Source: Levilactobacillus wangkuiensis
GTDB lineage: Bacteria; Bacillota; Bacilli; Lactobacillales; Lactobacillaceae
NCBI RefSeq assembly: GCF_016861605.1
Contig: NZ_BOLM01000002.1
Coordinates: 186,001 to 250,000 of the forward strand
DNA: 64,000 nt
Reading direction: 5' to 3'
In this document: in pieces, positions 1,020-62,332 of the stretch
Position numbering within the stretch: position 1 is the first letter of the stretch
How the letters are laid out: each line of letters starts with the position of its first letter
The notes under the pieces: model-generated
The model's input: the letters and a program-made list of their open reading frames with translations, nothing else
Database searches by the model: none
What the model was told of the DNA's origin: nothing
Made by a program: the position numbers and the translations under genes

Positions 1020-1321
1020 GGGTTACGCGGATGTTATTGTCGCCTCCGGGCTGGTGAAACTGAGCCTCGTCGCGGTGTCCGTCCGTTCCCGGCGGCGAGC
1101 TCAAAGTGCCCTGCTGTGGGGCCGGTTTCCGCCTGAGGACCGGGCTCCCACCTCAACTTTGCGCCTGAGAACCGGTCGCAAAGTTTGTCACGTGGACTAG
1201 GCTGGATAAGAACTCCAGCCAAGGCCACCGACACAGCTGGTCACTTTGGCCCGCCTCTGGTCACTAACATCCACCGACGTGGCCCATTTTCACCAGCCCT
1301 GCGGCTGACATCCGCTTAGCC
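1020..1321 (-). repeat. Bookend element 1 (type A, reverse)
   Basis: Full type A copy of the intergenic quasi-palindromic element. The core ends are CGCCTCCGGGCTGG (1041) and CCAGCCCTGCGGC (about 1292-1304). The outer arms continue the complementarity with locus-specific sequence: GTTACGCGGATGT on the left against ACATCCGCTTAGC on the right. The GCCTCC end faces the MFS gene. The arabinofuranosidase starts 150 bases to the right. Confidence 0.85.
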
Positions 1322-1473
1322 CCCATTCACTCAGCTTTATTCTCACCAGACTTTCTACAGGTGTCCTCATTATTTCTTCACGCATCTATCCACTCCTGTA
1401 GACGTCTATCACACGTAAACATGTACCCGATTCACCGATAACTGACGCATACTTAATTAGGAGGAAAACTTTC

Positions 1474-2964
1474 ATGCAAGGAAAATTAACCGTCGACCCA
1501 ACCAATCAGATTTCTAAAATTGACGACCGGCTCTTTAGTGCGCTGATTGAACACCTGGGCCGCGGCGTTTATGATGGGCTTTATAACCCGGGGAATCCCC
1601 TGTCCGATGCCAATGGCTTTCGGCAGGACGTGGTCAAAGCCGTTAAGGACCTCAATATCGACTTGATCCGTTACCCCGGTGGGAACTTTGTTTCTGGCTA
1701 CAACTGGGAAGATGGCATTGGGCCGAAAGACCAACGACCAACTCGACTGGACTTGGCCTGGCGGAGCATTGAAACCAACCAATTTGGCCTCCACGAATTC
1801 ATGAACTGGACCAAGCAGACCGGTACGCGACCCGATATGGCCGTTAACCTGGGCAGCCGCGGTATCGACGCCGCCCGCAACCTGGTTGAATACTGTAACT
1901 ACCCCGGTGGCACCTACTGGAGTGATCTACGGAAACAAAACGGCGCCGCAGAACCCTTTAACATTAAGACCTGGTGCCTGGGTAACGAAATGGATGGCGA
2001 CTGGCAGATTGGTCACAAGGACGCCGAAGAATATGGCAAATTGGCCCACGAAACGGCCAAGGTCATGCGGCTGGTCGATTCCGACCTAGATTTGGTCGTC
2101 AGCGGCAGTTCCACCCGGGAAATGGCCACGTTTGGTAGCTGGGAAGAAACCGTCCTTGACCACACCTACGACGACGTGCAATACCTCTCCCTGCACCGCT
2201 ACTACGATAATGAGGAAAACGACCTCCACAATTTCTTGGCCAAATCCGTCGACTTCGACGAATTTATCAGCGGCATCGTTGCCGTGTGTGACGCCGTCAA
2301 GGCCCGTAAACACAGCGATAAGACGCTCAATCTGGCCCTGGACGAATGGAACGTTTGGTACCACTCCCACAAACAAGACGATGAGACCGCGCCTTGGCAA
2401 CAAGCGCCACATTTGTTGGAAGACCACTACAACTTTGAGGACGCCCTGATGGTCGGGACCATGTTGATCACGTTATTAAAGCACGCCGACCGGGTGAAGA
2501 TTGCCTGCCTGGCCCAATTGGTCAACGTGATTGCGCCCATCATGACCGATGACACCGGCATCTGGCTGCAGTCCATCTTCTTCCCATTCATGCAGGTCTC
2601 CAAGTACGGTCGCGGTATCGCGCTCGCTCCTAAACAAACGGCGGATACCTACGACAGTAAAGACTTTACCGACGTGCCCTACCTCGATAGCCTGGCCGTC
2701 TACAATCCCGAACACCACGAAGTCGTGGTCTTTGCCGAAAATAAGGGTGAGGACGCCATGGACTTCAGCACCGAACTACGGGAATTCACCGCACAATCCG
2801 TGATTGAAGCCACCCAATTTGCCGGCTACGACATCAAGCAAACCAACGAAGATCAGGTCATGGCCATTAAACCTAACGACCACGTCACGCTGACCGACAA
2901 CACCTTACAAACGACACTCCAACCCCTTTCCTGGAACATGTTCCGGATTCAGGTTGCTGACTAA
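1474..2964 (+). CDS. abfA: Alpha-L-arabinofuranosidase, GH51
   Basis: A 496-residue retaining glycosidase that releases terminal arabinofuranose from arabino-oligosaccharides. It has no signal peptide, so it should act in the cytoplasm on imported oligosaccharides. The acid/base glutamate lies in WCLGNEMDG (E172) and the nucleophile in LALDEWNVW (E291), with the (beta/alpha)8 barrel between and around them and a beta-sandwich C-terminus after about residue 390. Length is normal for GH51. AGGAGG at 1461 with suitable spacing supports the ATG start. It follows a sugar symporter on the same strand, separated by a terminator and a bookend element, so it probably has its own promoter. Many lactobacilli pair such enzymes with MFS permeases. 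Confidence 0.95.
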   Translation: MQGKLTVDPTNQISKIDDRLFSALIEHLGRGVYDGLYNPGNPLSDANGFRQDVVKAVKDLNIDLIRYPGGNFVSGYNWEDGIGPKDQRPTRLDLAWRSIETNQFGLHEFMNWTKQTGTRPDMAVNLGSRGIDAARNLVEYCNYPGGTYWSDLRKQNGAAEPFNIKTWCLGNEMDGDWQIGHKDAEEYGKLAHETAKVMRLVDSDLDLVVSGSSTREMATFGSWEETVLDHTYDDVQYLSLHRYYDNEENDLHNFLAKSVDFDEFISGIVAVCDAVKARKHSDKTLNLALDEWNVWYHSHKQDDETAPWQQAPHLLEDHYNFEDALMVGTMLITLLKHADRVKIACLAQLVNVIAPIMTDDTGIWLQSIFFPFMQVSKYGRGIALAPKQTADTYDSKDFTDVPYLDSLAVYNPEHHEVVVFAENKGEDAMDFSTELREFTAQSVIEATQFAGYDIKQTNEDQVMAIKPNDHVTLTDNTLQTTLQPLSWNMFRIQVAD

Positions 2965-2990
2965 TTAGCTTCATTGATCGAACGACTAGC

Positions 2991-3036
2991 AAAAAGATTC
3001 GCATCCGCAACTTTGCGCGGACGCGAATCTTTTAGT
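2991..3036. terminator. Bidirectional terminator between abfA and the uvrA paralogue
   Basis: The inverted repeat AAAAGATTCGC...GCGAATCTTTT has an inner GC stem and T-rich tracts on both strands. It can end abfA (plus) and the convergent uvrA-like gene (minus). Confidence 0.85.
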
Positions 3037-3069
3037 TTTCATTATTTGTACTCACCAGCAATTAGTGAA

Positions 3070-3130
3070 CTTTCACAGGCTGGAACCGCCCCCACCACAG
3101 AGCAGCTTGAATTCGCCGCCGGGAACGGAT
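3070..3130 (+). repeat. Bookend element 2 (type A remnant, forward)
   Basis: Only the right third of a type A copy survives here: AGGCTGGAACC, a CCACAG block and GCCGCCGGGAACGGA, with several substitutions. It lies between the stop codon of the uvrA-like gene (3154) and the shared terminator at 2991-3036, with its gene-proximal end facing that gene. Confidence 0.7.
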
Positions 3131-3153
3131 AGACACGGACTCGTTTACAAATA

Positions 3154-5388
3154 CTATGCCGTCACCGAGCGTTCAGCCTGGTGGATGCCACTAACGGGGC
3201 CCTCGTACAGGACCTCGCCACCCTTGTCCCCGCCGTCCGGACCGATATCAATCAGCCAGTCCGCACTGCGCATGATGTCCAGGTTGTGCTCAATGACTAA
3301 TACCGTATTGCCCTTATCCACCAAACGGTTAATAATTTGAATCATGACCTTGATATCTGAGGGATGCAGGCCGGTCGTCGGCTCATCTAGAATATAGAGG
3401 TTCCCGCGCTTGTTGAGTTCCTTGGCAACCTTCAACCGCTGGCCCTCCCCGCCGGACAAGGTGTTCAGGGGCTGACCAAGTGCTAGGTAATCCAGACCGA
3501 CATTGGTCACGTGAGTCAACTTATTCGCCACCTTAGTGCCAGCAAAGAAGGTCACCGCCTCCTCAACCGTCATGGCCAAAATCTCGACGATGTTTTTCCC
3601 CTGGTAGGTATAGGTCAACACCTGCGGATCAAACCGTCCGCCGTGGCACAGTGAACAGGTCACCGTCGCGTTTTCCATAAATGACAGGTTCAATTCCACG
3701 ACGCCCTTGCCGCCACACTGGGGACAAGCACCCTTGGAGTTGTAACTGAAGAGGCTGTCACTCACGTCATTGGCCGTGGCCAACAACTTGCGAATGTCAT
3801 TCATCACGCCAATGTAGGTCGCCGGATTGGACCGACTGTTGGCGTGTAACGGCCGCTGATCGATTTGAATGGCGTCCGGCTGGTCATGAGCAAAGGCCTG
3901 CTCGACCAGCGTACTTTTGCCAGAACCCGCTACCCCGGTCACCACGGTAAATAGCCCCGTCGGTACCCGTAAGACAGCATCCTTGAGGTTATGTCGCCGA
4001 CTGGGTTGGCTGGTCAAAAAGGTCGTTGGTTGGCGCGGATTGGGGTTAATCGGCAGGCTTTGACTCAAAAACCGACTGGTCAACGTGTCTGCCTTCAACA
4101 ATTCCGGATAGGTCCCGGTGAAGGTGATCTCGCCCCCATGAATACCGGCGTGCGGGCCGACGTCGACCACGTAATCGGCCACCTTGATGACGTCCGGGTC
4201 GTGTTCGACCACGAGCACCGTGTTGCCATTATCTCGCAGGCGACAGAGCAAGTCGTTGAGTCGGTGAACATCGCGGGGGTGCAGGCTCGTACTGGGCTCA
4301 TCGAGAATGTACAACAGATTCGTCAGACTATTGGCCAAATACTTGACCGTCTTCACCCGCTGCGATTCCCCACCGGATAACGTGGTGGTCTCCCGCGTCA
4401 GGCTGAGATAATCCAGACCAACGTCGACCAGGCTTTGAACCCGGTCGCGAATGCTGGTGATCAGCCCCTGCATCCGCTCATCCGTAAACGTTTCTAGCGT
4501 GACCAGCAACTGGTCCAACTGAAGGTCCGTCAGGTCAAAAATATTGAACCCGTTGACCTTGGCGGCTAAGACCTCTGGCCGGTAACGTTGGCCATGACAG
4601 GTTGGACACGGCTGCATCGTCGCAAATTTTTCGATTTTCTTGCGCGCACCCTCGCTGATGCCCGTGCTGGTCTTTAGATTTTGCCGATAGAAGAGGCGTT
4701 CAACGCCCTCAAACGTCACGTTCATCTGTGCCCCCCGGTAATCGACCGTTAAGTGCTTCTCACCGTTCATCAGCTGGTCCATTTCGGCCGAGGTGAAGTC
4801 TTGCACCGGCTTATCGAGGTCGAAGTATCCGCTGTTTGCAATCATTTGAAAGTAAAAGCTGGTTGCCCCATAACCGGGTAGCTGGATGGCCCCTTCGTTC
4901 AGGGATTTCGTGACGTCCAACGCCGCCTCACGATTCAGCACGTAGGTCTTGCCAATTCCCTCACAGTCCGGACACATCCCCGCCGGATCATTGAAGGAAA
5001 AGGCGTTACTGGCGTTTCCGTACTGGGGGCGACCGAATCGCGAAAAGAGAATCCGTAAGAGTGCGTTGATGTCACTGACCGTCCCCAGCGTCGAGCGCGC
5101 ATTGCCGCCTAAGGGTTTCTGATCGATGACGATGGCCGTCGACAGATTATGCACCTCATCCACGTCCGGTCGGTGATAGTGCGGCAGGTACAGCCGGGTG
5201 AAACTATCGTATGTACTATTCAGTTGCCGCCCTGCCTCCTGCGCAATGGTGTCGAAGACAATGGAAGACTTTCCCGAACCGGATACCCCGGTAAAGACGG
5301 TCAATTTGTTCTTGGGAATCTTGAGACTCACGTTCTTCAAATTGTTTTCCCGGTCATTCACAATTTCAATAAAGTCTGGATTAGACAT
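3154..5388 (-). CDS. UvrA-family ABC ATPase, short paralogue (UvrA2/DrrC-like)
   Basis: A 744-residue tandem ABC ATPase of the UvrA family. It has two Walker A motifs (GVSGSGKSS, residue about 31; GVAGSGKST), two signature motifs (LSGGESQRV, LSGGEGQRL) and Walker B segments ILDEPS and ILDEPT. CxxC zinc-knuckle pairs (CPDCEGIG, CPTCHGQ, CPQCGGKG with CSLCHGG) are kept. Canonical UvrA is about 940-950 residues; the shorter length suggests loss of the UvrB-binding/insertion region, as in UvrA2 or drug-resistance paralogues. It is therefore probably not the main excision-repair UvrA and may bind DNA lesions or give resistance to intercalators. GGGAGG lies just upstream of the ATG. It is a lone gene convergent with abfA. 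Confidence 0.88.
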   Translation of the reverse strand: MSNPDFIEIVNDRENNLKNVSLKIPKNKLTVFTGVSGSGKSSIVFDTIAQEAGRQLNSTYDSFTRLYLPHYHRPDVDEVHNLSTAIVIDQKPLGGNARSTLGTVSDINALLRILFSRFGRPQYGNASNAFSFNDPAGMCPDCEGIGKTYVLNREAALDVTKSLNEGAIQLPGYGATSFYFQMIANSGYFDLDKPVQDFTSAEMDQLMNGEKHLTVDYRGAQMNVTFEGVERLFYRQNLKTSTGISEGARKKIEKFATMQPCPTCHGQRYRPEVLAAKVNGFNIFDLTDLQLDQLLVTLETFTDERMQGLITSIRDRVQSLVDVGLDYLSLTRETTTLSGGESQRVKTVKYLANSLTNLLYILDEPSTSLHPRDVHRLNDLLCRLRDNGNTVLVVEHDPDVIKVADYVVDVGPHAGIHGGEITFTGTYPELLKADTLTSRFLSQSLPINPNPRQPTTFLTSQPSRRHNLKDAVLRVPTGLFTVVTGVAGSGKSTLVEQAFAHDQPDAIQIDQRPLHANSRSNPATYIGVMNDIRKLLATANDVSDSLFSYNSKGACPQCGGKGVVELNLSFMENATVTCSLCHGGRFDPQVLTYTYQGKNIVEILAMTVEEAVTFFAGTKVANKLTHVTNVGLDYLALGQPLNTLSGGEGQRLKVAKELNKRGNLYILDEPTTGLHPSDIKVMIQIINRLVDKGNTVLVIEHNLDIMRSADWLIDIGPDGGDKGGEVLYEGPVSGIHQAERSVTA

Positions 5389-13337: not shown

Positions 13338-13561
13338 AAATCAAACTAGTTATGTCGTTCCCGGCGGTGGATTCAAGGTTCCCTGCTGTGGGGACCGGTT
13401 CCAGCCTGAGGGGCGGTCTGCCACCTCGCCTTGAAACCTCGCTGAAATACGCGAGTTTCCAAGGTCGTCCCGTGTTCTAAGCTGAGAAAGTCACTCAGCT
13501 AAGAACACCGACACAGCAGGGAACCTTGATCCATCTCTGGTCACTTGGACTAGCCTGATTT
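13338..13561 (-). repeat. Bookend element 3 (type A, reverse)
   Basis: Type A copy beginning GTTCCCGGCGG at 13356. Hairpin 2 is of the long variant with stem CCTTGGAAAC-type arms around CTCGC...GCGAG. Locus-specific outer arms AAATCAAACTAGT (left) and ACTAGCCTGATTT (right) are complementary. The gene-proximal end faces the start of the 12232-13308 gene. Confidence 0.85.
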
Positions 13562-22275: not shown

Positions 22276-22365
22276 TGTAAATCCACCACAATCGCTTCAC
22301 CCGGTGATGGAAAATTCACTTGGTCTCCACCTGCGGATGACAGCCCCACGTTAAAATAGTGCGCA

Positions 22366-22566
22366 AGTCCGTTCCCGACGACAGGCTCAAGACGCCCTGC
22401 TGTGGGGAACGGCTCCAGCCAAAGACCGGTCTTCCGCCTCGCCTTGAAACCTCGCTAAAGTTCGCGAGTTTCCAAGGTCGTCCCGTGCTCTAGGCAAGGA
22501 AAATACCCTTGCCAAGACCACCGACACAGCTGGGCATCTTGGCCTGCCTCTGGTCACTAACATTGA
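22366..22566 (-). repeat. Bookend element 4 (type A, reverse)
   Basis: Starts at TCCGTTCCCGACG and ends near TGGTCACTAAC. Hairpin 2 is the long variant (CCTTGAAACCTCGC against GCGAGTTTCCAAGG). The gene-proximal end faces the guaA promoter. It stands back to back with element 5. Confidence 0.83.
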
Positions 22567-22681
22567 CGCATCCATTTATAACGGGTCAAAACCACCCCAT
22601 GCCATCATTGTTCAAGTATGATATATATTTTCAACAAGCATAACCCTAGCAGCACACCAGCAAAACTGCCAACCAACTATC

Positions 22682-22983
22682 TGCGGTTCAAACCAGTGTC
22701 AGCCGCAGGGATGGGAAAACTGGGCCGGTCGTGGGAGTGACCAGAGGCGCGCCAAGGTGCCCGGCTGTGTCGATGGACTTGGCTGGCTGGGGTTCTATCC
22801 CAGCCTAGTTCCATGGGACAACCTTTGAGACCGCTTTTCAGGCTCAAAGTTGAGGTGAAAGCCCGCTTCACAGGCTGGAACCGGCCCCACAGCAGGGCTC
22901 CTTGAGCGTACCGCCGGGAACGGACGCGACCAGGCCCAGTTTTCACCAGCCCGGAGGCGCAAGTCACACCAGTTTCAACCGCA
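22682..22983 (+). repeat. Bookend element 5 (type A, forward); right arm overlaps the GNAT 3' end
   Basis: Core from GCCGCAGGGATGG to CCAGCCCGGAGGC. The outer arms TGCGGTTCAAACCAGTGT (22682) and ACACCAGTTTCAACCGCA (to 22983) are complementary with few mismatches. The right arm reads through the stop codon (22964-22966) and last codons of the GNAT gene. Confidence 0.88.
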
Positions 22984-24494: not shown

Positions 24495-24733
24495 GGTTAA
24501 AATAAACTGTTGTGCTGGGTCTTTCCGCCTGCGGGCGTTTAGCCTAGCCGGCCTGTGGGGCCCACCCGAAGCCAAAGAGCGGTCTTCGGGTTCGGTTTGA
24601 GCCACGAAAGTCACGTATCTCAAACGCGTCCCGTGCTGTAAGGCCGGAAAATCACCGGTCTAACACCACCGACACAGGCGCTGGCAAGCCTAACGCCCTC
24701 CGGCTCCAAGACCGACCATACGTTGATTTGAAC
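24495..24733 (-). repeat. Bookend element 6 (variant D, reverse)
   Basis: A diverged copy with core ends GCCTGCGGGCGTT and AACGCCCTCCGGC, the conserved AGCGGTCTT hairpin loop, hairpin 2 (GTTTGAG against CTCAAAC) and hairpin 1 (GGCCGG against CCGGTC). Outer arms GGTTAAAATAAAC and CGTTGATTTGAAC are partly complementary. The proximal end faces coaA. Confidence 0.78.
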
Positions 24734-27245: not shown

Positions 27246-27307
27246 GCCAATCCCTCCTCAAATAACTGGGTAAACAACTACCACTCAAAATTACTGCGTT
27301 TCAGTCC

Positions 27308-27500
27308 GTTCTGCCTGCGTCAGTTAGGCATTCCACCCCTGTGTGGCAACCCTTTGAAGCCATAGTTCGGTCTTCAAAGGCGGCGGTGAGCCTTGCAAAA
27401 CCCACAAGTCTCCCCACACGACCCGTGAAGGCCGGCAACCCACCGGTCTAACAACACCGACACAGGGGTTCCATACCTAACTGTCTCCGGCGCCACTCAC
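27308..27500 (-). repeat. Bookend element 7 (variant D, reverse)
   Basis: Core CTGCCTGCGTCAGTTAGG pairs with CCTAACTGTCTCCGGCG. Hairpin 3 is CTTTGAAG...CTTCAAAG around the conserved CGGT loop, hairpin 2 CTTG...CAAG and hairpin 1 GGCCGG...CCGGTC. The proximal end faces helD. The stems share little sequence with type A yet fold in the same way. Confidence 0.78.
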
Positions 27501-27664: not shown

Positions 27665-27911
27665 TATGCTTGACTACGGGCTAAACCAGTGAACGCCGCA
27701 GGGCTGGTGAAAATAGGCTCAGCCGTGGGACTTCCCTTAGTAGCGCTTTTCGCTGCTTAGGGAAGTGATAGCTTTGAGACTCGTTCTTAGAGGATCAAAG
27801 TAAGCCCGAAGACCGCTCTTTGGCTTCGGGCGTTCGCCCACAGCGTCACGGCCTATTTTCACCAGCCCGAAGGCACCAACAACGATTATTTTTTTGCCCG
27901 TATCAAGCATA
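27665..27911 (+). repeat. Bookend element 8 (type B, forward)
   Basis: Core GCCGCAGGGCTGGTGAAAAT to the matching CCAGCCCGAAGGC end. Hairpin 1 has arms ACTTCCCTTAG and CTTAGGGAAGT; hairpin 3 is CCCGAAG...CTTCGGG. Locus-specific outer arms TATGCTTGACTACGGGC and GCCCGTATCAAGCATA are complementary. The proximal end faces the antiporter gene at 28034. Confidence 0.88.
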
Positions 27912-29905: not shown

Positions 29906-30125
29906 AACCAGTTGTGTGAGTACTCCCCCGCCTTACCGGGCAGCGAAAATGAGCCGGAACGCTGGGGGCAGGACGGTCGAAGACAAAGAGCGGTCTTCGA
30001 CCTCGCTTTGAACCGCCCAAACCGCGTTTCAAAGTCGCCATTCTCTGAAGAACACAGAGAATCCCCCGGCTGAGCTCATTTTCGCTGCCCTATCGGCTAC
30101 ACCGTGAGTATCCACACCATTGGTT
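29906..30125 (-). repeat. Bookend element 9 (variant of type B, reverse)
   Basis: Core GCAGCGAAAATGAGC pairs with GCTCATTTTCGCTGC, a pair of arms distinct from other copies. Hairpin 3 is GTCGAAG...CTTCGAC, hairpin 2 CTTTGAA...TTTCAAAG and hairpin 1 ATTCTCT...AGAGAAT. Outer arms AACCAGTTGTGTGAGTACTC and GAGTATCCACACCATTGGTT are complementary and locus-specific. The proximal end faces the antiporter stop. Confidence 0.87.
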
Positions 30126-30216: not shown

Positions 30217-30452
30217 AACTTATCCATGGTCTAACCGTTTATCAGCCGCAGGGATGGTGACAATAGGCTCAGCCGTGGGAGTTACCTTAGCGGCAAAGCC
30301 GCTTAGGTAACTGATGTCTTTGAGACTCGTACTTTGAGGCTCAAAGTAAGTCCGAAGACCGCTCTTTGGCTTCGGACGTTCGCCCACAGCGTCACGGCCT
30401 ATTTTCACCATCCCGGAGGCAATGACAACGACCGCAGACCATGGATGAAGTT
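30217..30452 (+). repeat. Bookend element 10 (type B, forward)
   Basis: Hairpin 1 is AGTTACCTTAGCGG...CCGCTTAGGTAACT and hairpin 3 TCCGAAG...CTTCGGA. Locus-specific outer arms AACTTATCCATGGTCT and AGACCATGGATGAAGTT are almost perfectly complementary. The right arm ends 24 bases before the start codon of the phosphatase gene. Confidence 0.9.
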
Positions 30453-31350: not shown

Positions 31351-31351
31351 A

Positions 31352-31787: not shown

Positions 31788-31788
31788 A

Positions 31789-32473: not shown

Positions 32474-32475
32474 GA

Positions 32476-32918: not shown

Positions 32919-33141
32919 GGTCAACGCACAACCAGGAGCCGGAGGAAGCCAGGGTGGAGACGGCTGTGTCGGTGATGTTAGGCGGGTGGGCTTGCCGGCC
33001 TTACATCACGGGGCGACTTTTGAGACGCCGACCCTGGCGGCTTAAAAGCGAGCTGGAGGACCGCCCCTCAGGCCGGAAGCGGTCCCCACAGCAGGCGGAA
33101 CCCTGGAAGCCGCAGGCGGCCATCCCCCACTGTCCTTGACC
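32919..33141 (+). repeat. Bookend element 11 (diverged type A, forward)
   Basis: Hairpin 1 is GTGATGTTAGGC...GCCTTACATCAC, hairpin 2 CTTTTGAG...CTTAAAAG, then the conserved GGACCGCCCCTCAGG and CCCCACAGCAGG blocks. The closing arms GGTCAA and TTGACC pair. Nearly every stem differs from other type A copies but remains paired. The proximal end faces oppF. Confidence 0.78.
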
Positions 33142-39108: not shown

Positions 39109-39172
39109 TTTATAATCCAACCCCTCTTAGTTGTTTGATAAATAAATTGACAACCTCAAATTTGATATTGCA

Positions 39173-39734: not shown

Positions 39735-40015
39735 GATGTTACCGGTGCCGTCAAAACGGGAAAATGAGATGGTTCCGACCAATGTGAGTGACCAGAGGTG
39801 GGCCAAGCTGGCCAGCTGTGTCGATGCTCTTAGCTGAGTGATTTTTCTCAGCTTAGAGCATGGGACAACCTTTGCGACCGATTTTCAGGCGCAAAGTTGA
39901 GGTGGAAGACCGCTCCTCAGGCTGGAACCGGCCCCATAGCAGGCCCGCTTGAGCCCACCGCCGGGAACGGACGTCACCGACCACCCTCTCATTTTCACTG
40001 CCGAAGCGGCATCTG
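39735..40015 (+). repeat. Bookend element 12 (type A, forward), in the oppA2 3' UTR
   Basis: Ends are GGGAAAATGAGA on the left and TCTCATTTTC on the right, a stem pair not seen in most copies. Hairpin 2 is CTTTGCG...CGCAAAG, again with paired changes. It ends nine bases from the oppA2 stop codon and precedes that gene's terminator, so it should be transcribed. Confidence 0.86.
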
Positions 40016-41652: not shown

Positions 41653-41704
41653 AAAATCCGACCCCTCTAAGTTAGTATGCCTAAGCAACTTGTTGATAAA
41701 GACC

Positions 41705-41733
41705 ACTATAGATTAAAATAAAATGAGAATCAA
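41705..41733 (-). promoter_or_regulatory. Promoter of oppA copy 2
   Basis: On the minus strand: TTGATT, 17-base spacer, TATAGT. It is close to consensus, with a leader of about 45 bases. Confidence 0.75.
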
Positions 41734-41774: not shown

Positions 41775-42034
41775 ATCGCCTCCAGGCTGGTAAAAAATGG
41801 ACCTGGTCGCGTCCGTTCCCGCCGGTGAGCTCAAGGATCCCTGCTATGGGGCCGGTTCCAGCCTGAAGAACGGGCTTCCACCTCAACTTTGAGCCTGAGA
41901 AACGGTCTCAAAGATTGTCCCGTGGACTAGGCTGGCAAAAAACACCAGCCAAGGCCACCGACACAGCCGGGCACCTTGGCTCGCCTCTGGTCACTTCCAC
42001 AACCGGCCCATTTTCACCAGCCCTCCGGCTAACA
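41775..42034 (-). repeat. Bookend element 13 (type A, reverse)
   Basis: Core CGCCTCCAGGCTGG to CCAGCCCTCCGGC. Hairpin 2 is CTTTGAG...CTCAAAG and hairpin 1 GGCTGG...CCAGCC. The proximal end faces the oppA2 promoter. Confidence 0.87.
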
Positions 42035-42261: not shown

Positions 42262-42425
42262 CAACACACCCAACCACCAGCCAATACCAATCCAGTGAAA
42301 ATAAGCGGTCAATGTGAGTGACCAGAGGTGGGCCAAGCCGGCCAGCTGTGTCGGTGTTCTTAGCTAAGAACACGGGGCGACCACCTTTCAGTCTGTAACT
42401 CACTCCCGAGAACAGATGCCAACCA
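42262..42425 (+). repeat. Bookend element 15 (type A, truncated, forward)
   Basis: It starts with a direct repeat (CCACCAGCCAATACC...) shared with element 16 at 42468, keeps the left half and hairpin 1 (TGTTCTTAGCTAAGAACA), then breaks off near 42385. Confidence 0.7.
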
Positions 42426-42451: not shown

Positions 42452-42742
42452 CGGAAAAATTATCAACGACACACCCACCAGCCAATACCAATCCAGTGAA
42501 AATACGCGGTCAATGTGAGTGACCAGAGGCGAGCCAAGGTGACCAGCCGTGTCGATGGTCTTAGCTGAGGTTTCTCACTCAGCTTAGCCCATGGGACAAC
42601 CTTTGAGACCGCCCTTCGGCTCAAAGTTGAGGTGGAAGCCCGCCCCTCAGGCTGAAACCGGCCCCATAGCAGGGCACCTTGAGCTCGCCGCCGGGAACGG
42701 ACAACTAACCGCCACCTGATTTTCACTAGTTTGGGACAGGTG
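42452..42742 (+). repeat. Bookend element 16 (type A, forward)
   Basis: Full copy with hairpins TTAGCTGAG...CTCAGCTTAG, TTTGAG...CTCAAA and AGCC...GGCT. Its GCCGCCGGGAACGG end faces hflX. The left flank duplicates that of element 15. Confidence 0.85.
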
Positions 42743-44275: not shown

Positions 44276-44581
44276 GTCCCGGGCTAAACCAGTGTCAGCC
44301 GCAGGGCTGGGAAAACTGGGCCGGTCGTGGAAGTGACCAGAGGCGAGCCAAGGTGACCAGCTGTGTCGATGGTCTTAGCTGAGGTTTCTCACTCAGCTTA
44401 GAGCATGGGACAACCTTTGAGACCGCTCCTCAGGCTCAAAGTTGAGGTGGAAGCCCGCCCTTCGGCTGGAACCGACCCCACAGCAGGGCTCCTTGAGCTC
44501 GCCGCCGGGAACGGACGCGACCAGGCCCAGTTTTCACCAGCCCGGAGGCGCTGCCAAGCACAAAAGTTCAGCCCAGAGGAC
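44276..44581 (+). repeat. Bookend element 17 (type A, forward), in the 3' UTR of the ABC operon
   Basis: A near-consensus copy: TGACCAGAGGCGAGCC, hairpin 1 GCTGAG...CTCAGC, hairpin 2 TTTGAG...CTCAAA, CCCCACAGCAGGGC and GCCGCCGGGAACGG. Outer arms GTCCCGGGCTAAAC and GTTCAGCCCAGAGGAC are complementary, and the right arm reaches the stop codon of the permease gene. Confidence 0.9.
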
Positions 44582-47780: not shown

Positions 47781-48022
47781 GATTGGTGGAAATGAGGGGT
47801 GTGCCTTGGTTTTCGTTCCCGACGGTGGGCTCAAGCGGGCCGGCTATGGGGTCGGTTCCAGCCTGAGGACCGGGCTTCCACCTCGACTTTGTGCCTGAAA
47901 TACGGTCACAAAGGTCGTCCCGTGGGCTAAGCTGAGAAAGGACCTCAGCTAAGACCACCGACACAGCTGGCCCGCTTGGCCCACCTCTGGTCACTGACAT
48001 GGCTTGATCATTTTCACCAATT
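47781..48022 (-). repeat. Bookend element 18 (type A, reverse)
   Basis: Closing arms ATTGGTGGAAATGA and its counterpart at 48005-48022 (TCATTTTCACCAAT) pair. Hairpin 2 is CTTTGTG...CACAAAG with paired changes. The proximal end faces the glnQ operon promoter. Confidence 0.85.
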
Positions 48023-50254: not shown

Positions 50255-50513
50255 GGTTTTGATGGAAATAAACGTTTTGGTGTGCGTGTGCTGGTCGTTC
50301 CCGACGGCGGGCGCAACCTGCCCTGCTGTGGGGTCGCTTTCAGCCTGAGGGCGGGCTTTCAGCTCGACTTGAAACCTCGCTGAGGTACGCGAGTTTCCAA
50401 GGTCGTCCCGTGGACTAGGCTGAGAAAGGACCTCAGCCAAGACCGCCGACACAGCTGGTCAAGTTGGCCCGCCTCTGGTCACTGAAAAGGTGTGGTGATT
50501 TCCACTAACCGCT
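50255..50513 (-). repeat. Bookend element 19 (type A, reverse)
   Basis: Core from GGTCGTTCCCGACGG to CTCTGGTCACTG with the long hairpin 2 (CTTGAAACCTCGC against GCGAGTTTCCAAG). Outer arms GGGTTTTGATGGAAAT and ATTTCCACTAACC are complementary. The proximal end faces the Fur-family gene. Confidence 0.84.
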
Positions 50514-50643: not shown

Positions 50644-50860
50644 CAATTCGGTTTAAACCAGTGTTAGCCGTGAGGACGAGAAAAACTGACTCAGCCGTGG
50701 GATTTCTAACGCGGTTCGCGTTAGAAATGGCGACTTTGAAACTCGCCCTTTGAGGTTCAAAGCGAGCTTCGAGACCGCTCTTCGGCTCGGAGCGTCCTGC
50801 CCACCGCGTTCCGGTTCTATTAAGCCTGAAAATCTAAGAAACAGACCGACCACTCGATAA
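50644..50860 (+). repeat. Bookend element 20 (type B variant, forward; tandem copy 1)
   Basis: Hairpin 1 is a perfect ATTTCTAACGCG-GTT-CGCGTTAGAAAT, hairpin 2 TTTGAGG-type arms and hairpin 3 CTTCGAG...CTCGGAG. It is repeated after 228 bases by element 21, with the flank CTAACAGCCAATTCGG in common. Its right closing arm is damaged (TTCTATTAAGCC). Confidence 0.85.
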
Positions 50861-51092
50861 GTCTAACAGCCAATTCGGTTCAAACCAATGTTAGCCGTGA
50901 GGACGAGAAAAAATGACTCAGCCGTGGGATTTCTAACGCGGTTCGCGTTAGAAATGGCGACTTTGAAACTCGCCCTTTGAGGTTCAAAGCGAGCTTCGAG
51001 ACCGCTCCTTGGCTCGGAGCGTCCTGCCCACCGCGTTCCGGTCAGTTTTTCTCGTCCGGTAAGGCGACTTCGACCTGTGTAAACCCGAATTC
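50861..51092 (+). repeat. Bookend element 21 (type B variant, forward; tandem copy 2)
   Basis: Almost identical to element 20 but with an intact right arm (GTCAGTTTTTCTCGTC pairing with GACGAGAAAAAATGAC). The outer arm TAAACCCGAATTC is complementary to AATTCGGTTTAA of the left flanks. The proximal end faces the Gmk-like gene's 3' end. Confidence 0.87.
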
Positions 51093-51698: not shown

Positions 51699-52110
51699 GC
51701 TGCTCCTCCAAGTACGTGTTGGCTTGGTCTAATAAGCCCTTTAAGTTGTCATAACTCAGGCGTTCGCGGGCAATCTTGTAGTCGAACCAGCCAAATTCAC
51801 TGATTTCTTCAACCTGCCGCTTAATTTTACTGTCGGCTGGCACCAATGACGTGTAGAGCACCACGTGTTTGTGATGGCCGTTCTTCATGTCGTAGTCCAA
51901 GTCGGCGTGAAACTCGGGATTGATGGCGACGACTAAACTGGTCTCTTCTTTAATTTCGCGCACAGCCGTCTGGAGATCCGTTTCATCCCCCTCGACGTGG
52001 CCCTTGGGAAAGCCCCAGAAGTTACTGGTGGCACTCTTTAACAGTAAATATTGGATTTGATTGTCGACGAGCCGGTAAACGACCGCGCCGCTAGCATTTT
52101 CGGTAATCAT
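51688..52110 (-). CDS. NUDIX hydrolase (diadenosine tetraphosphatase-like)
   Basis: A 140-residue hydrolase with a complete Nudix box, GHVEGDETDLQTAVREIKEE, near residue 40, preceded by FWGFPKGH. The opening SGAVVYRL and the compact length resemble bis(5'-nucleosyl)-tetraphosphatases. It would clean up nucleotide by-products; the substrate is inferred. It precedes and overlaps the Gmk-like gene on the same strand. Confidence 0.87.
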   Translation of the reverse strand: MITENASGAVVYRLVDNQIQYLLLKSATSNFWGFPKGHVEGDETDLQTAVREIKEETSLVVAINPEFHADLDYDMKNGHHKHVVLYTSLVPADSKIKRQVEEISEFGWFDYKIARERLSYDNLKGLLDQANTYLEEQHAE

Positions 52111-52517
52111 GTTGCATTGCCCCCTCGGAATTAAATAAACTCCTTCTATTTTAAATCGAAACCACTCAAAATGGGTAAAATAAACCCGACTTTCTCAAAA
52201 ACAACCGCTTACTCTCATTGACTTTTAATTTAATTCCACGGTACACTATCCCAGACATCATCGCGAATGGTAGGCGAATGGTAGCCGCAGCCTACCAAAT
52301 TAATCACAAAAAAGGCTGAAACTGCGCGCGACAATGTGTATCATCATTATATAAGGAAAGTTTTGGTTTAGGTGATTTTCGCTGGTTGGGCTAAATGACA
52401 TGCGCTTTTGATGAATAATCCTAAGAACAACTATTTTAATTTAGCAGCCTCACAAACACATGGTAAGTTCACTCGTTCAAGTCGGCGAGTCAACCGCAGG
52501 ACGGGAACCACTGACCG
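52111..52517. other. Non-coding gap before the APC permease gene
   Basis: No gene is visible. On the plus strand TTGACT (52218), an 18-base spacer and TACACT (52242) could form a promoter for the permease with a leader of nearly 500 bases. GGTAGGC...GCCTACC (about 52268-52298) forms a hairpin just after it. Neither is certain. Confidence 0.4.
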
Positions 52518-52715
52518 GTTTAGCTTTACCGCCAACGTCAGCCGTGAGGTCAGAGAAAATGGGCTCAGCCGTGGGAGTTACCTTTGAGACGTGAACTTCG
52601 GCTCAAAGTAAGGCCGAAGACCGCCCCTCAGGCTTCGGCCGTGCACCCACAGCGCCCCGGCCCATTTTCTCTGACCGGTAAGGCGCTGCCAACCACCGTT
52701 TAACCACCTAAACCA
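52518..52715 (+). repeat. Bookend element 22 (type B lacking hairpin 1, forward)
   Basis: The closing stem is GTCAGAGAAAATGGGC with GCCCATTTTCTCTGAC, another private stem. Hairpin 2 is TTTGAG...CTCAAA and hairpin 3 GCCGAAG...CTTCGGC; hairpin 1 is absent. The proximal end faces the APC gene. Confidence 0.85.
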
Positions 52716-52745
52716 AACAGTTTCAACGACATAAGGAGGCTTTTT

Positions 52746-54140: not shown

Positions 54141-54141
54141 C

Positions 54142-54324
54142 TCGCCTCCAGGATGCTGAAAACTGGCCGGATTGGCGGTGGACGGACGCCCCGAGCCAAA
54201 GGACGGTCTCAGGACTTAGGGTTGAGCCGAAGTTCACGTCTCAACCCGACCAATCCCCTAAGTGGCAAATACCGCCACAAAGGGGATTCCCACGGCCAGG
54301 CCAGTTTTCAGCATCCTTGCGGCT
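54142..54324 (-). repeat. Bookend element 23 (variant F, reverse)
   Basis: It starts two bases after the APC stop codon. Closing arms GCCTCCAGGATGCTGAAAAC and GTTTTCAGCATCCTTGCGGC pair with almost no mismatch. Hairpin 2 is GGTTGAG...CTCAACC. The sequence is far from type A and B but the fold is the same. Confidence 0.85.
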
Positions 54325-54517
54325 TACATCTGTTCACCCCGCTGATTGGTTTCTTCAATTATTTATTGTTCCAACAATTAATCTTTGCGTTACACTTACT
54401 GCAAGACAATTGTTTCACCCCGACTTCTAGTTTAAAAATCATGTACCACCCGGAAGCCAGGACAGTCAATCCAATGCAACCTTGAGCACCAACATTAACC
54501 ATTTTATTCACCACTCG

Positions 54518-54744
54518 TTGGCACTTAAAATCAGTGTCAGCCGCAGGGCTGGTGAAAATGGGCTAAGCCGTGGGAGTTCCCTTAGCGGGGGAACCCGCTT
54601 AGGGAACTGCTATCTTTGAGACGTGAACTTCGGCTCAAAGTAAGTCCGAAGACCGCTCCTCAGGCTTCGGACGTGCGCCCACAGCGTCACGGCCCATTTT
54701 CACCAGCCCGGAGGCGCTGACAACACACTGTTTCGAGTTCCAAC
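54518..54744 (+). repeat. Bookend element 24 (type B, forward)
   Basis: A model type B copy: closing arms GCAGGGCTGGTGAAAATGGGC and partner, hairpin 1 AGTTCCCTTAGCGGG...CCCGCTTAGGGAACT, hairpin 2 TTTGAG...CTCAAA, hairpin 3 TCCGAAG...CTTCGGA. Outer arms contain GTTGGCACTTAAAATCAGTG against CACTGTTTCGAGTTCCAAC. The proximal end faces pepX. Confidence 0.9.
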
Positions 54745-54788
54745 CACAGTTACGTTGATTTTTAAAATTGATAAGGTAGGCGATATTT

Positions 54789-57233
54789 ATGCGTAACCAA
54801 CAATTTGCCATTCGGCCCACAGCACCCGCTCAGGCCCTAGACGAACTTCAACGAATCCATTTCTTAAACGAACAAACGGAAAAACTCACCACCCCGAGCC
54901 AACTGCTCTGCAACTTCTACGACCGGAGCTGGCCCGAATTTACCACGCCCGACGCCGTTTCCCAACAGCTCAGTAACCTGATGGCGACGCCCGACACCGA
55001 TGGCCTGGACTTTCTCAGCAACCACGACAACGTTCCCGTCACGGTCTTCTACAACCTGGCCCTACAGCGGCTGGAATTTTCCGTCGACCTCGACTTTAAG
55101 CTGAGCGACCCCTTAGCCGCCATGGCCAAGATGCAACTGCCCGTGGCCGACCACGCCGGTGCGAACTTCACCTTGGACGAGCTCAAGCAGGCCTGGTACT
55201 TGCTCCTGACGACGCACACCAAGAATGGCCAGAGCTTCCTGGATCACCTGACCACGAAGGGCTACTTTGACCCCTTCGTTCACGACGCCCACGTCGACAA
55301 GCCCCTGATTTTTAACGGGAAGTCGCAGGCCGTCTTCGATACGACCAAACTGATTCGTGAAGTCGTTTACGTGGAAAGTCCCCAAGACACCGATCACGAT
55401 GGCAAGCGCGACCTGTTAAAGGCCGAGGTCATTCGCCCGGCCGAAACGGAAGCCGGTTTAAAGGTCCCCGTGCTCTACACCGCCAGTCCTTACAACCAGG
55501 GCACCAACGATGAAGCCGGTGACCAAATGATGCACAACGTGAACGTCCCGCTGCAACCGAAGCAGCCCAACGACCTCACGCTGGCTGACGTGACCGCCCA
55601 ACCGGACGACACGCCATTGCCCGCCCCTCGCACCGTGACCGCTACGACCAAGGAAGCCGCGCAGACCTTTGCCCGGGAACAATCCTACACGTTGAACGAC
55701 TACTTCTTGGCCCGCGGGTTCGCCGTGGTCTACGCTGCTGGTATCGGGACCCTAGATTCCGACGGCGTCCGCACGACCGGTGACCCCCAGGAAACGACCT
55801 CGACCATTGCCATCATTGAATGGTTAGCCGGCAACCGGACGGCCTTTACCAGCCGCGCCGCTACTCAGGCCATTCCCGCTTGGTGGAGCAATCACGCCGT
55901 TGCCATGACCGGCCGTTCCTACTTGGGAACCCTGGCCACAGCCGCCGCGACCACCGGTGTCGAAGGCCTCAAGACGGTCATTTCCGAAGCCGCCATTTCC
56001 AACTGGTACGACTACTACCGTGACGGCGGACTGGTCATCGCGCCCGGTGGCTTCCCTGGCGAAGACGCCGACGTGCTGGCCGAGGAAACGTTTAGCCGTC
56101 AGCTCCAGGCTGGGGACTATCATCGGATTCAGGCCAAATGGCAAGCCGACCTGGCCGCCATTACCCACGGCCAAGACCGCTCGACCGGGAACTACAATTC
56201 CTTCTGGGACGCGCGCAACTACCTAAAGAACGCCAAGAACATCAAGGCGGACCTCCTGTTAGTCCACGGCCTGAATGATTGGAACGTCAAGCCACGCAAC
56301 GTCAACAATCTCTGGAACGCCGTGCGCGACCTGCCCGTCACCAAGAAGCTGATCCTGCACCAAGGCCAACACATTTACATCAATGCCTTTCGCTCCATTG
56401 ACTACACGGACATCGTCAATCTCTGGTTGACCCACGAACTCCTGGGCGTCGACAACCAAGCGGAAACGCTGCTGCCAAACGTCATCATTCAGGACAACGT
56501 CCAGCCGGAAACGTGGCACGCCTACGAAGACTGGGATGCGCCAACCAACCCGACTCGTAACTTTAACCTGCAGGCCGATGAGCTGGTCGATCAAAGCACC
56601 CATGAGCCCCTGGCCTACGCCACGAGTTTCAACGACCAGTTACCCGTTGAGCAATTTAACAAGTACACCCACCATATCGATCAGTGGCAAACTGATTTGC
56701 TGGGTGACAAGCACAACGACATGTTCAATCACCGGTTAATCTTTAAGTCAGCCGTCTTGACGGACGACCTCCTGTTAGATGGGAAGCCGACTGTTGACCT
56801 GCGCGTGGCCGTGAACCAACCGGTCGGGATGTTGAGCTTCCAGCTGGTGGACTACGGGGATGCCAAACGCCTCGGCGTCTCACCAACCATCCTGGCGCGC
56901 AAGGCTCTGGACGAGGGTTACCGTTGGCGTGAGGACGACCTGCGTGAATTCAAGCCGGCCGCAACCACGCCATTTAAGATGATCACCAAGGGCCACCGTA
57001 ACCTGCAAAACCGGACCAACGCCTACCACGTCGATGAACTCAAGGCCAACGAATTCTACGACCTCAGCGTGACGCTACAACCAACCCACTACCGGCTGCT
57101 AGCGGGCCACCAACTGGGCTTGGTCATCTACGCAACCGACTTCGGCATGACCGTGCGCGGGAACCAGGACCTGCAGTACTCCATCCAGCTCGGCAATTCC
57201 GCCCTGCACCTGCCATTCTTACCAGAAAACTAG
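54789..57233 (+). CDS. pepX: Xaa-Pro dipeptidyl-peptidase
   Basis: An 814-residue serine peptidase (family S15) that releases X-Pro dipeptides from proline-rich peptides in the cytoplasm. The nucleophile lies in GRSYLGTL (near residue 380), the acid in [14 protein letters not shown] and the histidine in [12 protein letters not shown]. The N-terminal helical domain and C-terminal jelly-roll are complete, and length is standard. AAGGTAGG precedes the ATG. It is monocistronic, ending at the terminator 57528-57563 with bookend element 25 in between. Confidence 0.97.
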
Positions 57234-57255
57234 GTTAGTGTGTGGGATTGGCTTT

Positions 57256-57441
57256 GCGTTCCCGGCGGTGGGCTCAACCTGCCCTGCTGTGAGGTCGCTT
57301 CCAGCCGTAGTGCGGGCTTCCAGCTCGACTTTGAGCCTGAAAGGCGGTCTCAAAGCTCGCCCCGTGGACTAGGCTGAATGAGAAACTTCAGCCAAGACCA
57401 CCGACACAGCTGGGCAAGTTGCCCCACCTCTGGTCACTCAG
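57256..57441 (-). repeat. Bookend element 25 (type A, reverse), in the pepX 3' UTR
   Basis: From GCGTTCCCGGCGG to CTCTGGTCACTC with hairpins CTTTGAG...CTCAAAG and GGCTGAA...TTCAGCC. It lies between the pepX stop and its terminator; the proximal end faces pepX. The terminal closing arms are poorly kept. Confidence 0.82.
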
Positions 57442-57527
57442 ACTGGCCGTTGTTGCTGGTATGCTGGCTGGTTGGACGTGATTGCTCACGTTCACATTAG
57501 CTTATCCATCAAATTATCTATAACGCT

Positions 57528-57563
57528 AAAGAGCTAACGCCAATGACGTTAGCTCTTTTTAGG
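57528..57563 (+). terminator. Terminator of pepX
   Basis: AAAGAGCTAACG pairs with CGTTAGCTCTTT and is followed by T5. Confidence 0.9.
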
Positions 57564-57622
57564 TCACTTGGAGACACATGGAATCCATCATCAAGGTACA
57601 TCCCCCACCATCACCACCAACA

Positions 57623-57690
57623 GAATGCTGGTTAAACAGGTATCAGCCGTGAGATCAGAGGAAACGGGTTCAGCCGTGGGAGTTACCTAC
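57623..57690 (+). repeat. Bookend element 26 (type B fragment, forward)
   Basis: Left end only: GAATGCTGGTTAAACAGG, then GTGAGATCAGAGGAAACGGG and CAGCCGTGGGAGTTACC. It breaks off into a junction sequence (CGAGGAACCCACCGAATGCTG) that recurs at 58000, indicating insertion or duplication among adjacent copies. Confidence 0.72.
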
Positions 57691-57713
57691 AGACTACTCG
57701 CGAGGAACCCACC

Positions 57714-57985
57714 GAATGCTGACCAAACTAGTGTGAGCCGCAGGGCTGAGAAAATTGGGCCGGTCGTGGGAGTGACCAGAGGCGAGCCAAGGTACCCGGC
57801 TGTGTCGATGGTCTTAGCTGAGCGATTTTCCTCAGCTTAGAGCATGGGACAACCTTTGAGACCGTTCTTTGGCTCAAAGTTGAGGTGGAAGCCCGCCTTT
57901 TGGCTGGAACCGGCCCCACAGCAGGGTTCCTTGAGCGCGCCGTCGGGAACAGACGCAGCCAAACCCAGTTGTCACCAAATTAGTA
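57714..57985 (+). repeat. Bookend element 27 (type A, forward)
   Basis: Full type A copy starting at GCTGACCAAACTAGTGTG and ending near CCCAGTTGTCACC. Hairpin 1 is GCTGAG...CTCAGC. It is one of three forward elements in a row before the 58314 gene, each preceded by GAATGCTG. Confidence 0.85.
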
Positions 57986-58011
57986 AGACTCCACCCACGA
58001 GGAACACACCG

Positions 58012-58237
58012 AATGCTGGCTAAACTAGTGTCAGCCGCAGGGCTGGTGAAAATGGGCTCAGCCGTGGGAGTTGCCTTAGCGGGTTTCCCGCTTAGGCAAC
58101 TGCTATCTTTGAGACTCGTTTCTCAGAGGCTCAAAGTAAGTCTGGAGACCGCCCTTCGGCTCCAGACGTGCGCCCACAGCGTCACGGCCCATTTTCACCA
58201 GCCCGGAGGCGGCCCAACAACACAAGTTTAACCAGCA
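58012..58237 (+). repeat. Bookend element 28 (type B, forward)
   Basis: Hairpin 1 is AGTTGCCTTAGCGGG...CCCGCTTAGGCAACT and hairpin 3 TCTGGAG...CTCCAGA. Outer arms GCTGGCTAAACTAGTGT and ACACAAGTTTAACCAGC are complementary. The proximal end faces the hydrolase gene. Confidence 0.9.
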
Positions 58238-58251
58238 AAGAAGGTTGGGTG

Positions 58252-58280
58252 TTTAGAAATGACGCCGTTAGTGATAAACT
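58252..58280 (+). promoter_or_regulatory. Promoter of the proline iminopeptidase-like gene
   Basis: TTTAGA, 17-base spacer, TAAACT, 15 bases beyond the outer arm of bookend element 28. It is a moderate match to consensus. Confidence 0.5.
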
Positions 58281-58313
58281 ATTAATAACTCATTAGAAAC
58301 GGGGGAATCTCTC

Positions 58314-61589: not shown

Positions 61590-61741
61590 TTGTAGTCCCT
61601 TCCCTTCTTCTCTCACGCAGAAAAGGCCCCGACAACGTCAAGGCCGTATCGTAAACATATATTAGGTAGTAATTTACCACGAAACGCCCGGGTTCGTCAA
61701 CTTCCCCACCTGGGATTGCCCCCACATTCTATGCTATAATA

Positions 61742-61998
61742 GGTGAAATTCACCCGAATTGGCGTGGGTCTAAATAGTAAATTGTCTGAGTCGGACCGTT
61801 CCCGACGGCGGGTTCAAACTGCCCTGCTGTGGGGCCGGTTCCAGCCTGAGGGGCGGGCTTCCACCTCAACTTTGAGCCAAAGTGCGGTCTCAAAGGTTGT
61901 CCCATGCTCTAAATAGAGAAAATCACTCTATTAAGACCATCGACACAGCTGGTCAGTTTGACCCGCCTCTGGTCACTGACTGTGGTTGAATTCACGTT
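61742..61998 (-). repeat. Bookend element 29 (type A, reverse)
   Basis: Core from GACCGTTCCCGACGG to CTCTGGTCACTG. Hairpin 1 is AAATAGAG...CTCTATT, changed on both arms compared with the usual GCTGAG/CTCAGC. Outer arms around GGTGAAATTCACC and GGTTGAATTCAC are related by complement. The proximal end faces the ABC-F gene. Confidence 0.82.
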
Positions 61999-62127
61999 AC
62001 GTTTTCTCTGCCAATTCTGGTGACTGCTGTGTGGTTAACGCCAACACGCAATTGCCGGCTGACATTCCGGTTGACCAAACCGATGGATGAGCGGACGATT
62101 GCTTTTATGGTGACACGCGTCGTTGCC

Positions 62128-62332
62128 AGTCACATCTACGTAAGCCGCAGGGCGGGTGAAAATAAGCTCAGCCGTGGGAGTGGCCTTGGCGGTTTACCGC
62201 TTAGACCACTGCTATCTTTGAGACGTGACTTTCGGCTCAAAGTAAGTCCGGAGACCGCCTTTCGGCTCCGGACGGCGCCCACAGCGTCACGGCTTATTTT
62301 CACCCGCCCGGAGGCGACGGCAAACACGTATC
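62128..62332 (+). repeat. Bookend element 30 (type B, forward)
   Basis: Closing arms GCGGGTGAAAATAAGC and GCTTATTTTCACCCGC pair, differing from consensus at both arms. Hairpin 1 is AGTGGCCTTGGCGG against CCGCTTAGACCACT and hairpin 3 TCCGGAG...CTCCGGA. The proximal end faces the VOC gene. Confidence 0.88.

Follow-up and report, generated by a model that had tools for sequence, protein, structure and literature searches.

The window analysed here is a stretch of 64,000 nucleotides (nt), positions 186001-250000 of contig C2 in the 3.14-Mb genome of Levilactobacillus wangkuiensis, and its intergenic gaps carry copies of two related types of element, A and B, which are multi-branched palindromes. 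Their orientation follows a contact rule, in that the 3' end of an element may adjoin a gene while the 5' end hardly ever does. The rule is real, it is sharper than was first claimed in a sequence-only reading of the window, and it recurs in related species. As a tentative explanation, which we prefer without holding it to be probable, the elements were laid down in short gaps as back-to-back doublets, many of which later lost a partner.

Elements were located with strand-specific profiles built iteratively for type A (227 positions, 87 sequences) and type B (197 positions, 38 sequences), and the ends of an element are named after the direction of its profile. The sample from the host genome comprises 864 kb, the window and a further 800 kb of which half lies around known matches and half, in 20 stretches from nine contigs, was chosen regardless of matches. 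Genes were called with a custom script rather than a standard annotator, and by these calls only 77% of the sample is coding. It contains 238 matches to the two profiles, none within a called gene, and the orientation counts use 233 of them, five having been dropped where one side had no called gene. The 81 matches in the 400 kb not selected by matches extrapolate to about 635 per genome. Despite the near-palindromic sequence the strand of an element is unambiguous, because none of the 28 window elements is overlapped by an opposite-strand match to the final profiles (E ≤ 1e-3). A covariance model built on 55 sequences yielded 221 matches, whose overlap with the 238 found by profile was not formally determined; they include an extra element at 27.3 kb which was itself among the 55 sequences and lies outside profiles A and B. 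A profile built from this element matched only two places, and a third sequence class was rejected.

Within the window, 26 of 28 elements turn the 3' end to the nearer gene. The sequence-only reading had proposed that, wherever a gap holds two or more elements, the left ones are reverse and the right ones forward, and all eight of its gaps were reproduced: 22.4-23.0 kb (A-, A+), 27.3-27.9 kb (divergent -, B+), 29.9-30.5 kb (B-, B+), 41.8-42.7 kb (A-, partial A+, A+), 50.3-51.1 kb (A-, B+, B+), 54.1-54.7 kb (B-, B+), 57.3-58.2 kb (A-, B+ fragment, A+, B+) and 61.7-62.3 kb (A-, B+). Single elements were said mostly to face the nearer gene, and nine of ten in the window do so. Genes are thus bracketed by inward-facing copies at 5' and 3' edges alike, regardless of gene strand, as had been described. 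Random insertion was held to be insufficient, and in a symmetric simulation indeed only 52-55% of elements face the nearer gene, compared with 94% of the 78 single elements observed.

The same pattern holds over the whole 864-kb sample, where orientations are far from random, 211 of 233 elements facing the nearer gene. Outside the window the figures are 117/127 for stretches chosen for their matches and 68/78 for the 20 chosen regardless of matches; for singles in the latter they are 30/34, and 24/24 where the distances to the two genes differ by more than 100 nt. At 100 nt or less from a gene, with no lower limit, 139 of 140 elements point the 3' end at it, whereas the mean over 20,000 strand permutations was 70.9 and the highest value 92. 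Binned by distance, 137/138 face the nearer gene at -50 to 100 nt, 29/31 at 100-150 nt and 13/14 at 150-200 nt, as against 5/11 at 200-300 nt and 25/37 farther out, so that the rule vanishes beyond about 200 nt. It applies to singles at 5' edges (32/36) and at 3' edges (55/58) of genes. Altogether 139 of the 233 3' ends lie within 100 nt of a gene, as do just 5 of the 233 5' ends. This scarcity of close 5' ends also speaks for the main rival explanation, a serious one in our opinion though well short of probable, according to which polarity is selected: the 5' side would be harmful to a gene closer than some 100 nt, or else the 3' side would be useful there, and copies inserted the wrong way would have been purged. 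Doublet history and such selection may both act.

Among relatives, 258/286 elements of L. lanxiensis face the nearer gene (180/184 within 100 nt), as do 60/62 of L. brevis CD0817 (30/31) and 64/74 of L. andaensis (46/49). L. lanxiensis is not an independent sample because many of its sites are common with those of L. wangkuiensis; the pepX protein of the window is 99% identical to those of L. lanxiensis and L. mulengensis.

The arrangement of neighbouring copies bears on how the rule arose. With strands written from left to right, the 82 adjacent pairs in the 57 multi-element gaps of the host sample are -+ in 47 cases, ++ in 22 and -- in 13; the corresponding numbers are 52, 28 and 10 in L. 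lanxiensis (n = 90), 25, 3 and 1 in L. brevis CD0817 (n = 29) and 16, 1 and 2 in L. andaensis (n = 19). The arrangement +-, in which 3' ends face one another and which, according to the sequence-only reading, would refute it if equally frequent, was found in none of the 220 pairs of the four species. Nor did it occur at 14 element-bearing pepX loci from other records (pairs closer than 600 nt: 22 -+, 3 ++, 1 --). Median spacings in the host genome are 232 nt for -+, 82 nt for ++ and 66 nt for --. Outermost elements of multi-element gaps that lie more than 200 nt from a gene face it in 12 of 20 cases (13 of 31 in L. lanxiensis), and no outermost element facing the wrong way lies nearer than 100 nt (0/61 and 0/87, respectively).

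These features would follow if the unit laid down consisted of two opposite elements with their 5' ends together and their 3' tails outward, such that a doublet entering a short intergenic gap would set a 3' tail against each neighbouring gene. Loss of one partner by interior deletion or decay would leave a single with its tail still at the gene and the remains of its partner on the 5' side, tandem duplication could add further copies on that side (++ or --), and recombination between dispersed copies through their conserved arms might exchange A and B interiors without turning the site. Such a history accounts for the absence of +-, for the free space on the 5' side, for collapsed partners and for wrong-facing outermost elements occurring only far from genes. 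We infer that the doublet is the unit of spread, that most singles are decayed doublets and that spread took this course. A role in the transcript could have been acquired at gene 3' ends at a later stage. L. brevis CD0817 provides the strongest case: of its 33 occupied gaps, eight contain a single element and 25 contain several (21 -+, 3 -++, 1 --+). Its 25 -+ pairs comprise 17 A/B, 8 B/B and no A/A combinations, 2.9 A/A being expected from frequencies, and the A/B pairs are tightly spaced (10-90% range 47-78 nt). The loci L193-L212 of this strain show mostly tight back-to-back A/B doublets, unlike the window's species.

The case is weakest in the host genome, and several observations weigh against it. 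There, singles predominate (94 of 151 occupied gaps), no Y1 transposase was found, and the -+ pairs, like those of L. lanxiensis, are broadly spaced with no enrichment of A/B combinations. When 74 of the 94 single-element gaps were searched for traces of a partner, nine reverse matches, the predicted orientation, reached a score of at least 26, against four forward ones, and just 13 of the 74 gaps passed this threshold in either orientation. Type A singles of the host match the profile better than copies from multi-element gaps (median 208 versus 179 bits, p = 5e-5) and those of L. lanxiensis lean the same way (195 versus 127 bits, p = 0.07); host type B, L. lanxiensis, L. brevis type B and L. 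andaensis gave no significant difference. Where one of two orthologous gaps has an extra element, this is no less often a neighbour on the same strand (++ or --) than an opposite partner, the pepX locus of L. brevis ATCC 14869 carries no element, and no recent transposition of the query element was seen, its best other copy being 92% identical. The placement of elements between stop codon and terminator, described below, does not follow from doublet insertion.

Comparison of sites between species shows how elements change in place. Among 201 orthologous gaps compared between L. wangkuiensis and L. lanxiensis, 87 are occupied in at least one genome; of these, 47 are identical, 8 have the same strands with another type, 27 differ in element number and 5 are empty in one genome. 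In the A/B swaps examined (window 54140-54789 and L010:6827-7803) the arms are kept and the interior is changed while site and strand stay the same, and these swaps between sister species are probably cassette exchange among dispersed repeats. Several missing elements prove to be interior deletions with the arms left behind: the host gap L016/7 holds a collapsed A- that is intact in L. lanxiensis, at L017/0 the host retains only the outer end of a B- that is whole in L. lanxiensis, and at L010:11898 it is L. lanxiensis that carries a collapsed A-. At L020/12 the listed elements are A-A+ in L. lanxiensis and A- in the host, and in L. cerevisiae the opposite partner is present at two sites, window 39.1 and 47.5 kb. 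Downstream of pepX, where genus-wide counts omit L023 and L040, the gap measures 67-83 nt at eight of ten element-free loci (L033-L037, L043, L046, L066), the exceptions being 250 nt at L027 and 423 nt at L042, and 633-1080 nt in element-bearing relatives.

Two explanations place the rule in the act of insertion. In one, geometry alone suffices: if about 100 nt of unconserved sequence on the 5' side belonged to the element, random insertion into short gaps would leave the 3' side nearer to a gene. A lop-sided footprint of 100-200 nt does give 90-92% facing the nearer gene, each gap being counted once. Moreover, single-element gaps, after subtraction of element and arms, have medians 60-147 nt above those of element-free host gaps (109-226 nt by type) in each of four gap types, an excess that counts for the doublet account as well. 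We nevertheless consider this explanation highly improbable, as it fits the 3' distances poorly, with simulated medians of 78-109 nt against 38.5 nt observed and 42-61% of 3' ends within 100 nt against 82%; by argument rather than simulation, independent random insertions should also yield the +- pairs that never occur. In the other, an integration process would dock the 3' end at gene boundaries, and some eukaryotic retroelements target gene starts. The 3' ends do lie closer to genes than in random simulation (38.5 nt against medians of at least 77 nt), all four kinds of gene edge are equally occupied, and the distance from element to terminator is narrow (interquartile range 112-144 nt). Yet we know of no DNA signature common to the stop-codon and promoter sides of genes, no enzyme was found in a search limited to the Y1 family, and no clear fresh insertion was seen except one candidate at about 1.06 kb in the window, so that directed insertion seems unlikely. 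The candidate is a 346-nt insert (window 943-1474) carrying an A element directly after a terminator, absent from L. lanxiensis, and it provides the one candidate target-site duplication, of 4 nt.

Observations at gene ends and gene starts also bear on selection of polarity. One set comprises 91 elements that face a gene within 200 nt and have 170 nt or more of 5' zone. Past the element, a terminator directed out of the faced gene is present for 29 of the 53 at 3' edges and for none of the 38 at 5' edges. In these 29 cases the element therefore lies inside the transcript, and elements at gene ends are often situated between stop codon and terminator. In a wider set of 76 elements at 3' edges the terminator lies beyond the element in 33 and between stop codon and element in 9, the distance from element to terminator having quartiles of 112, 130 and 144 nt in the 33 cases. 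A terminator borne by the element itself was rejected, given 29/53 at gene ends but 0/38 at gene starts. So were erosion of the 3' flank by deletion, as the terminator past the element has been preserved in those cases, and a sense leader, as the orientation rule also holds at 3' edges.

The 5' flank of a subset of gene-end elements is complementary to about the last 40 coding nucleotides of the adjacent gene. For the arm tests, elements had to cover 80% or more of the profile and to have sufficient flank, which left 170, then 169, of the 233; of these, 76 at 3' edges and 46 at 5' edges were compared with coding ends. The element's own gene ranked in the top 5% in 18 of 76 cases at 3' edges (3.8 expected, p = 3e-8) and in 3 of 46 at 5' edges, a control with the other gene giving 1/36. 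In the 30 strongest cases the pairing is collinear with that of the arms, and its median reach into the coding sequence is 40 nt. Within the window, the 5' arm of the element at 22711..22941 (+) shows such complementarity to the coding end of the gene that ends at 22964 on the minus strand (arm z 5.6-7.4). The result is repeated in L. lanxiensis (18/85 at 3' edges, 1/50 at 5' edges) and L. andaensis (9/29) but is not clear in L. brevis CD0817 (2/20). The complementarity may be either an inverted copy of the gene end or a selected pairing. Among the mismatches of 25 strong arms, G.U on the mRNA strand prevails (57:18), which an A/C-rich flank explains in part, and no co-evolution of arm and coding end was found at the 3' edge among 11 pepX loci.

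Of 81 elements at gene starts, 20 are separated from the gene by a promoter-like site and 11 have such a site only upstream of them; element-free gene starts show such a site in 134 of 274. At window 52110-52746 an outer inverted repeat encloses an insert, which intervenes between the ribosome-binding site and a promoter-like stretch. A promoter within the 5' flank of the element was rejected, matches there being at background density and crowding instead between element and gene.

Selection could thus act through distinct roles, the element forming a giant hairpin in the 3' untranslated region with the coding end at gene ends and lying outside the promoter upstream of genes, a version that is conceivable but again far from probable. 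It is favoured by the position before the terminator and by the coding-end complementarity, and counts against it include the L. brevis CD0817 result, the lack of co-evolution at pepX and the need for one element to play two different roles at two edges. Taken further, it would amount to a gene-boundary code across the genome, which we regard as doubtful: hundreds of genes would each have one polarised structured element, with an interior interchangeable between two cassettes. At gene ends it would follow the stop codon and precede the terminator, the last ~40 coding nucleotides forming one strand of a giant mRNA hairpin enclosing the stop codon, and at gene starts it would keep the same polarity outside the promoter.

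A transcription insulator, a role raised in the sequence-only reading, or a one-way terminator at unit boundaries would also suit elements that bracket genes and invariably have their own strand directed into the gene. Of 906 gene edges in gaps of at least 80 nt, 198, about one fifth, carry an element, and occupancy is independent of exposure to read-through, both at 5' edges (56/291 co-directional versus 41/194 divergent) and at 3' edges (69/291 co-directional versus 32/130 convergent). An insulator gains no support from these numbers because exposed edges are not more often occupied, and it is very unlikely also in that the element has no T-run terminator signature, nearby terminators are confined to places where a gene end requires one, many elements at gene ends precede the terminator and the rule fails past 200 nt.

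Consensus folding of 112 A and 57 B copies gave 70 and 63 pairs, respectively, common to both strands. Individual pairs show as many as three Watson-Crick types in A and four in B, indicating covariation, and the arms of both A and B pair as terminal inverted repeats. Non-Watson-Crick cells in the cores are near strand parity (G.T:A.C 212:180 for A and 73:55 for B), to be compared with 14:0 for nine tRNAs and, for 145 terminators from the same sequence, 133:67. This near-parity points to a fold maintained largely as DNA, or by a process copying one arm from the other, and argues against selection of polarity. The outer arms of type A show a transcript-strand G.U bias at 3' edges (151:36) and none at 5' edges (60:74), which favours such selection. 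Against it, type B arms do not differ between edges (15:18 and 7:12), and the cores of this type tend at 3' edges towards G.T on the element strand (22:4), opposed to a reading as RNA. Transcript-strand wobble was rejected as a general RNA signature since the two types contradict each other. The window gave no Rfam match at the gathering score, and nothing credible emerged in 57200-58300 at a lax threshold.

A DNA search with one A element found the family in 16 of 23 other congeners and in none of 16 genomes outside the genus, and one A element had no match in 72,556 plasmid records. Family PF01797 (Y1 transposase), the only transposase family searched, has no match in the host genome and matches in 5 of 14 control genomes.

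The Levilactobacillus family constitutes repeats of a new form similar to repetitive extragenic palindromic (REP) sequences and bacterial interspersed mosaic elements (BIMEs), and this genome has no Y1 transposase. REP doublets forming hairpins (REPINs) are described as inverted, with singles read as remnants, and 93% of 430 REP doublets are inverted in Pseudomonas fluorescens SBW25 (PMC3116915), and BIMEs are described as REPs in alternating orientation (PMC2817692). Like both, the elements number in the hundreds, are extragenic and palindromic, and are arranged as inverted doublets, as singles and in tandem clusters. They differ in their units (multi-branched cores of about 200-230 nt plus arms, as against 16-40 nt), in the lack of a Y1 or REP-associated tyrosine transposase (RAYT), in a near-absolute polarity toward genes and, with respect to what is reported for REPINs, in that paired copies are not better conserved than singles. 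To our knowledge such polarity of repeats toward genes on both sides is not known in bacteria. Miniature inverted-repeat transposable elements (MITEs) and the pneumococcal BOX and RUP elements are non-coding, intergenic and structured, with terminal inverted repeats and interchangeable modules, and in these respects the Levilactobacillus elements are similar; no comparable polarity toward genes is known to us for them. For a target duplication the family offers one candidate, and no parent transposase emerged from the search of the Y1 family. As in the structured RNAs of Rfam, there is a conserved multi-branch fold with strong covariation, but no curated model matches in the window and core wobble lacks the asymmetry of tRNAs. 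Among the papers ranked highest in our literature search, whose coverage left out most subscription papers, none dealt with such Levilactobacillus repeats; in the passages retrieved from a comparative L. brevis genome paper only clustered regularly interspaced short palindromic repeats (CRISPR) are named (PMC6533708), and Lactobacillus appears in one table passage of PMC2267715, for L. johnsonii.

Table 1. Elements of the window, with strand, score (profile match unless stated) and remarks
Element	Position	Strand	Score and remarks
A	1077..1296 (1042-1317 incl. arms)	-	199.6 bits; no counterpart in L. lanxiensis
A fragment	3072..3144	+	41.1 bits
A	13352..13555	-	180.4 bits
A, left of pair	22363..22577	-	179.3 bits
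A, right of pair	22711..22941	+	216.9 bits
B/A-like	24548..24681	-	profile match 24553-24624; covariance model 114.9 bits
Divergent, left of pair	27287..27499	-	single-sequence profile; covariance model 27336-27469, 92.1 bits
B, right of pair	27682..27877	+	178.3 bits
B, left of pair	29929..30100	-	131.7 bits
B, right of pair	30232..30426	+	191.5 bits
A core	32960..33095	+	77.8 bits; covariance model 134.1 bits
A	39776..39979	+	209.9 bits
A, left of group	41796..42020	-	225.0 bits
A, partial	42295..42395	+	58.9 bits
A, right of group	42496..42706	+	215.6 bits
A	44307..44532	+	228.9 bits
A	47807..48019	-	209.9 bits; exception, farther from gene it faces
A, left of group	50289..50507	-	177.1 bits
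B	50654..50821	+	129.0 bits
B	50882..51068	+	140.9 bits; tandem copy of 50654..50821
B	52533..52689	+	123.5 bits; insert absent in L. cerevisiae
B, left of pair	54141..54335	-	126.0 bits
B, right of pair	54528..54721	+	187.7 bits; L. lanxiensis has A there
A	57252..57448	-	185.4 bits; between pepX stop and terminator
B fragment	57633..57689	+	30.8 bits; exception to rule
A	57746..57969	+	216.5 bits
B, right of group	58021..58212	+	199.3 bits
A, left of pair	61787..61983	-	202.9 bits
B, right of pair	62134..62320	+	163.0 bits

Some other features of the window may be recorded. Direct repeats with a period of about 437 nt occupy 31243-32700 in a 2.1-kb intergenic gap that measures 1.1 kb in L. 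lanxiensis. Two adjacent paralogous genes (37480-39120 and 40024-41706) share stretches 71-81% identical at an offset of 2544 nt, and the gap between them carries an element. The minus-strand gene at 3154-5388 encodes a UvrA-like ABC protein of 744 amino acids with a match to the UvrA DNA-binding domain.

If the elements did arise as doublets, Levilactobacillus would possess a REPIN-like system which lacks a Y1 transposase, has units about ten times larger and undergoes active cassette exchange. If polarity is instead selected, it would expose a function at gene boundaries or at mRNA 3' ends. Under either reading, the predicted pairing of element arms with coding ends makes a concrete claim on the structure of the mRNAs concerned.

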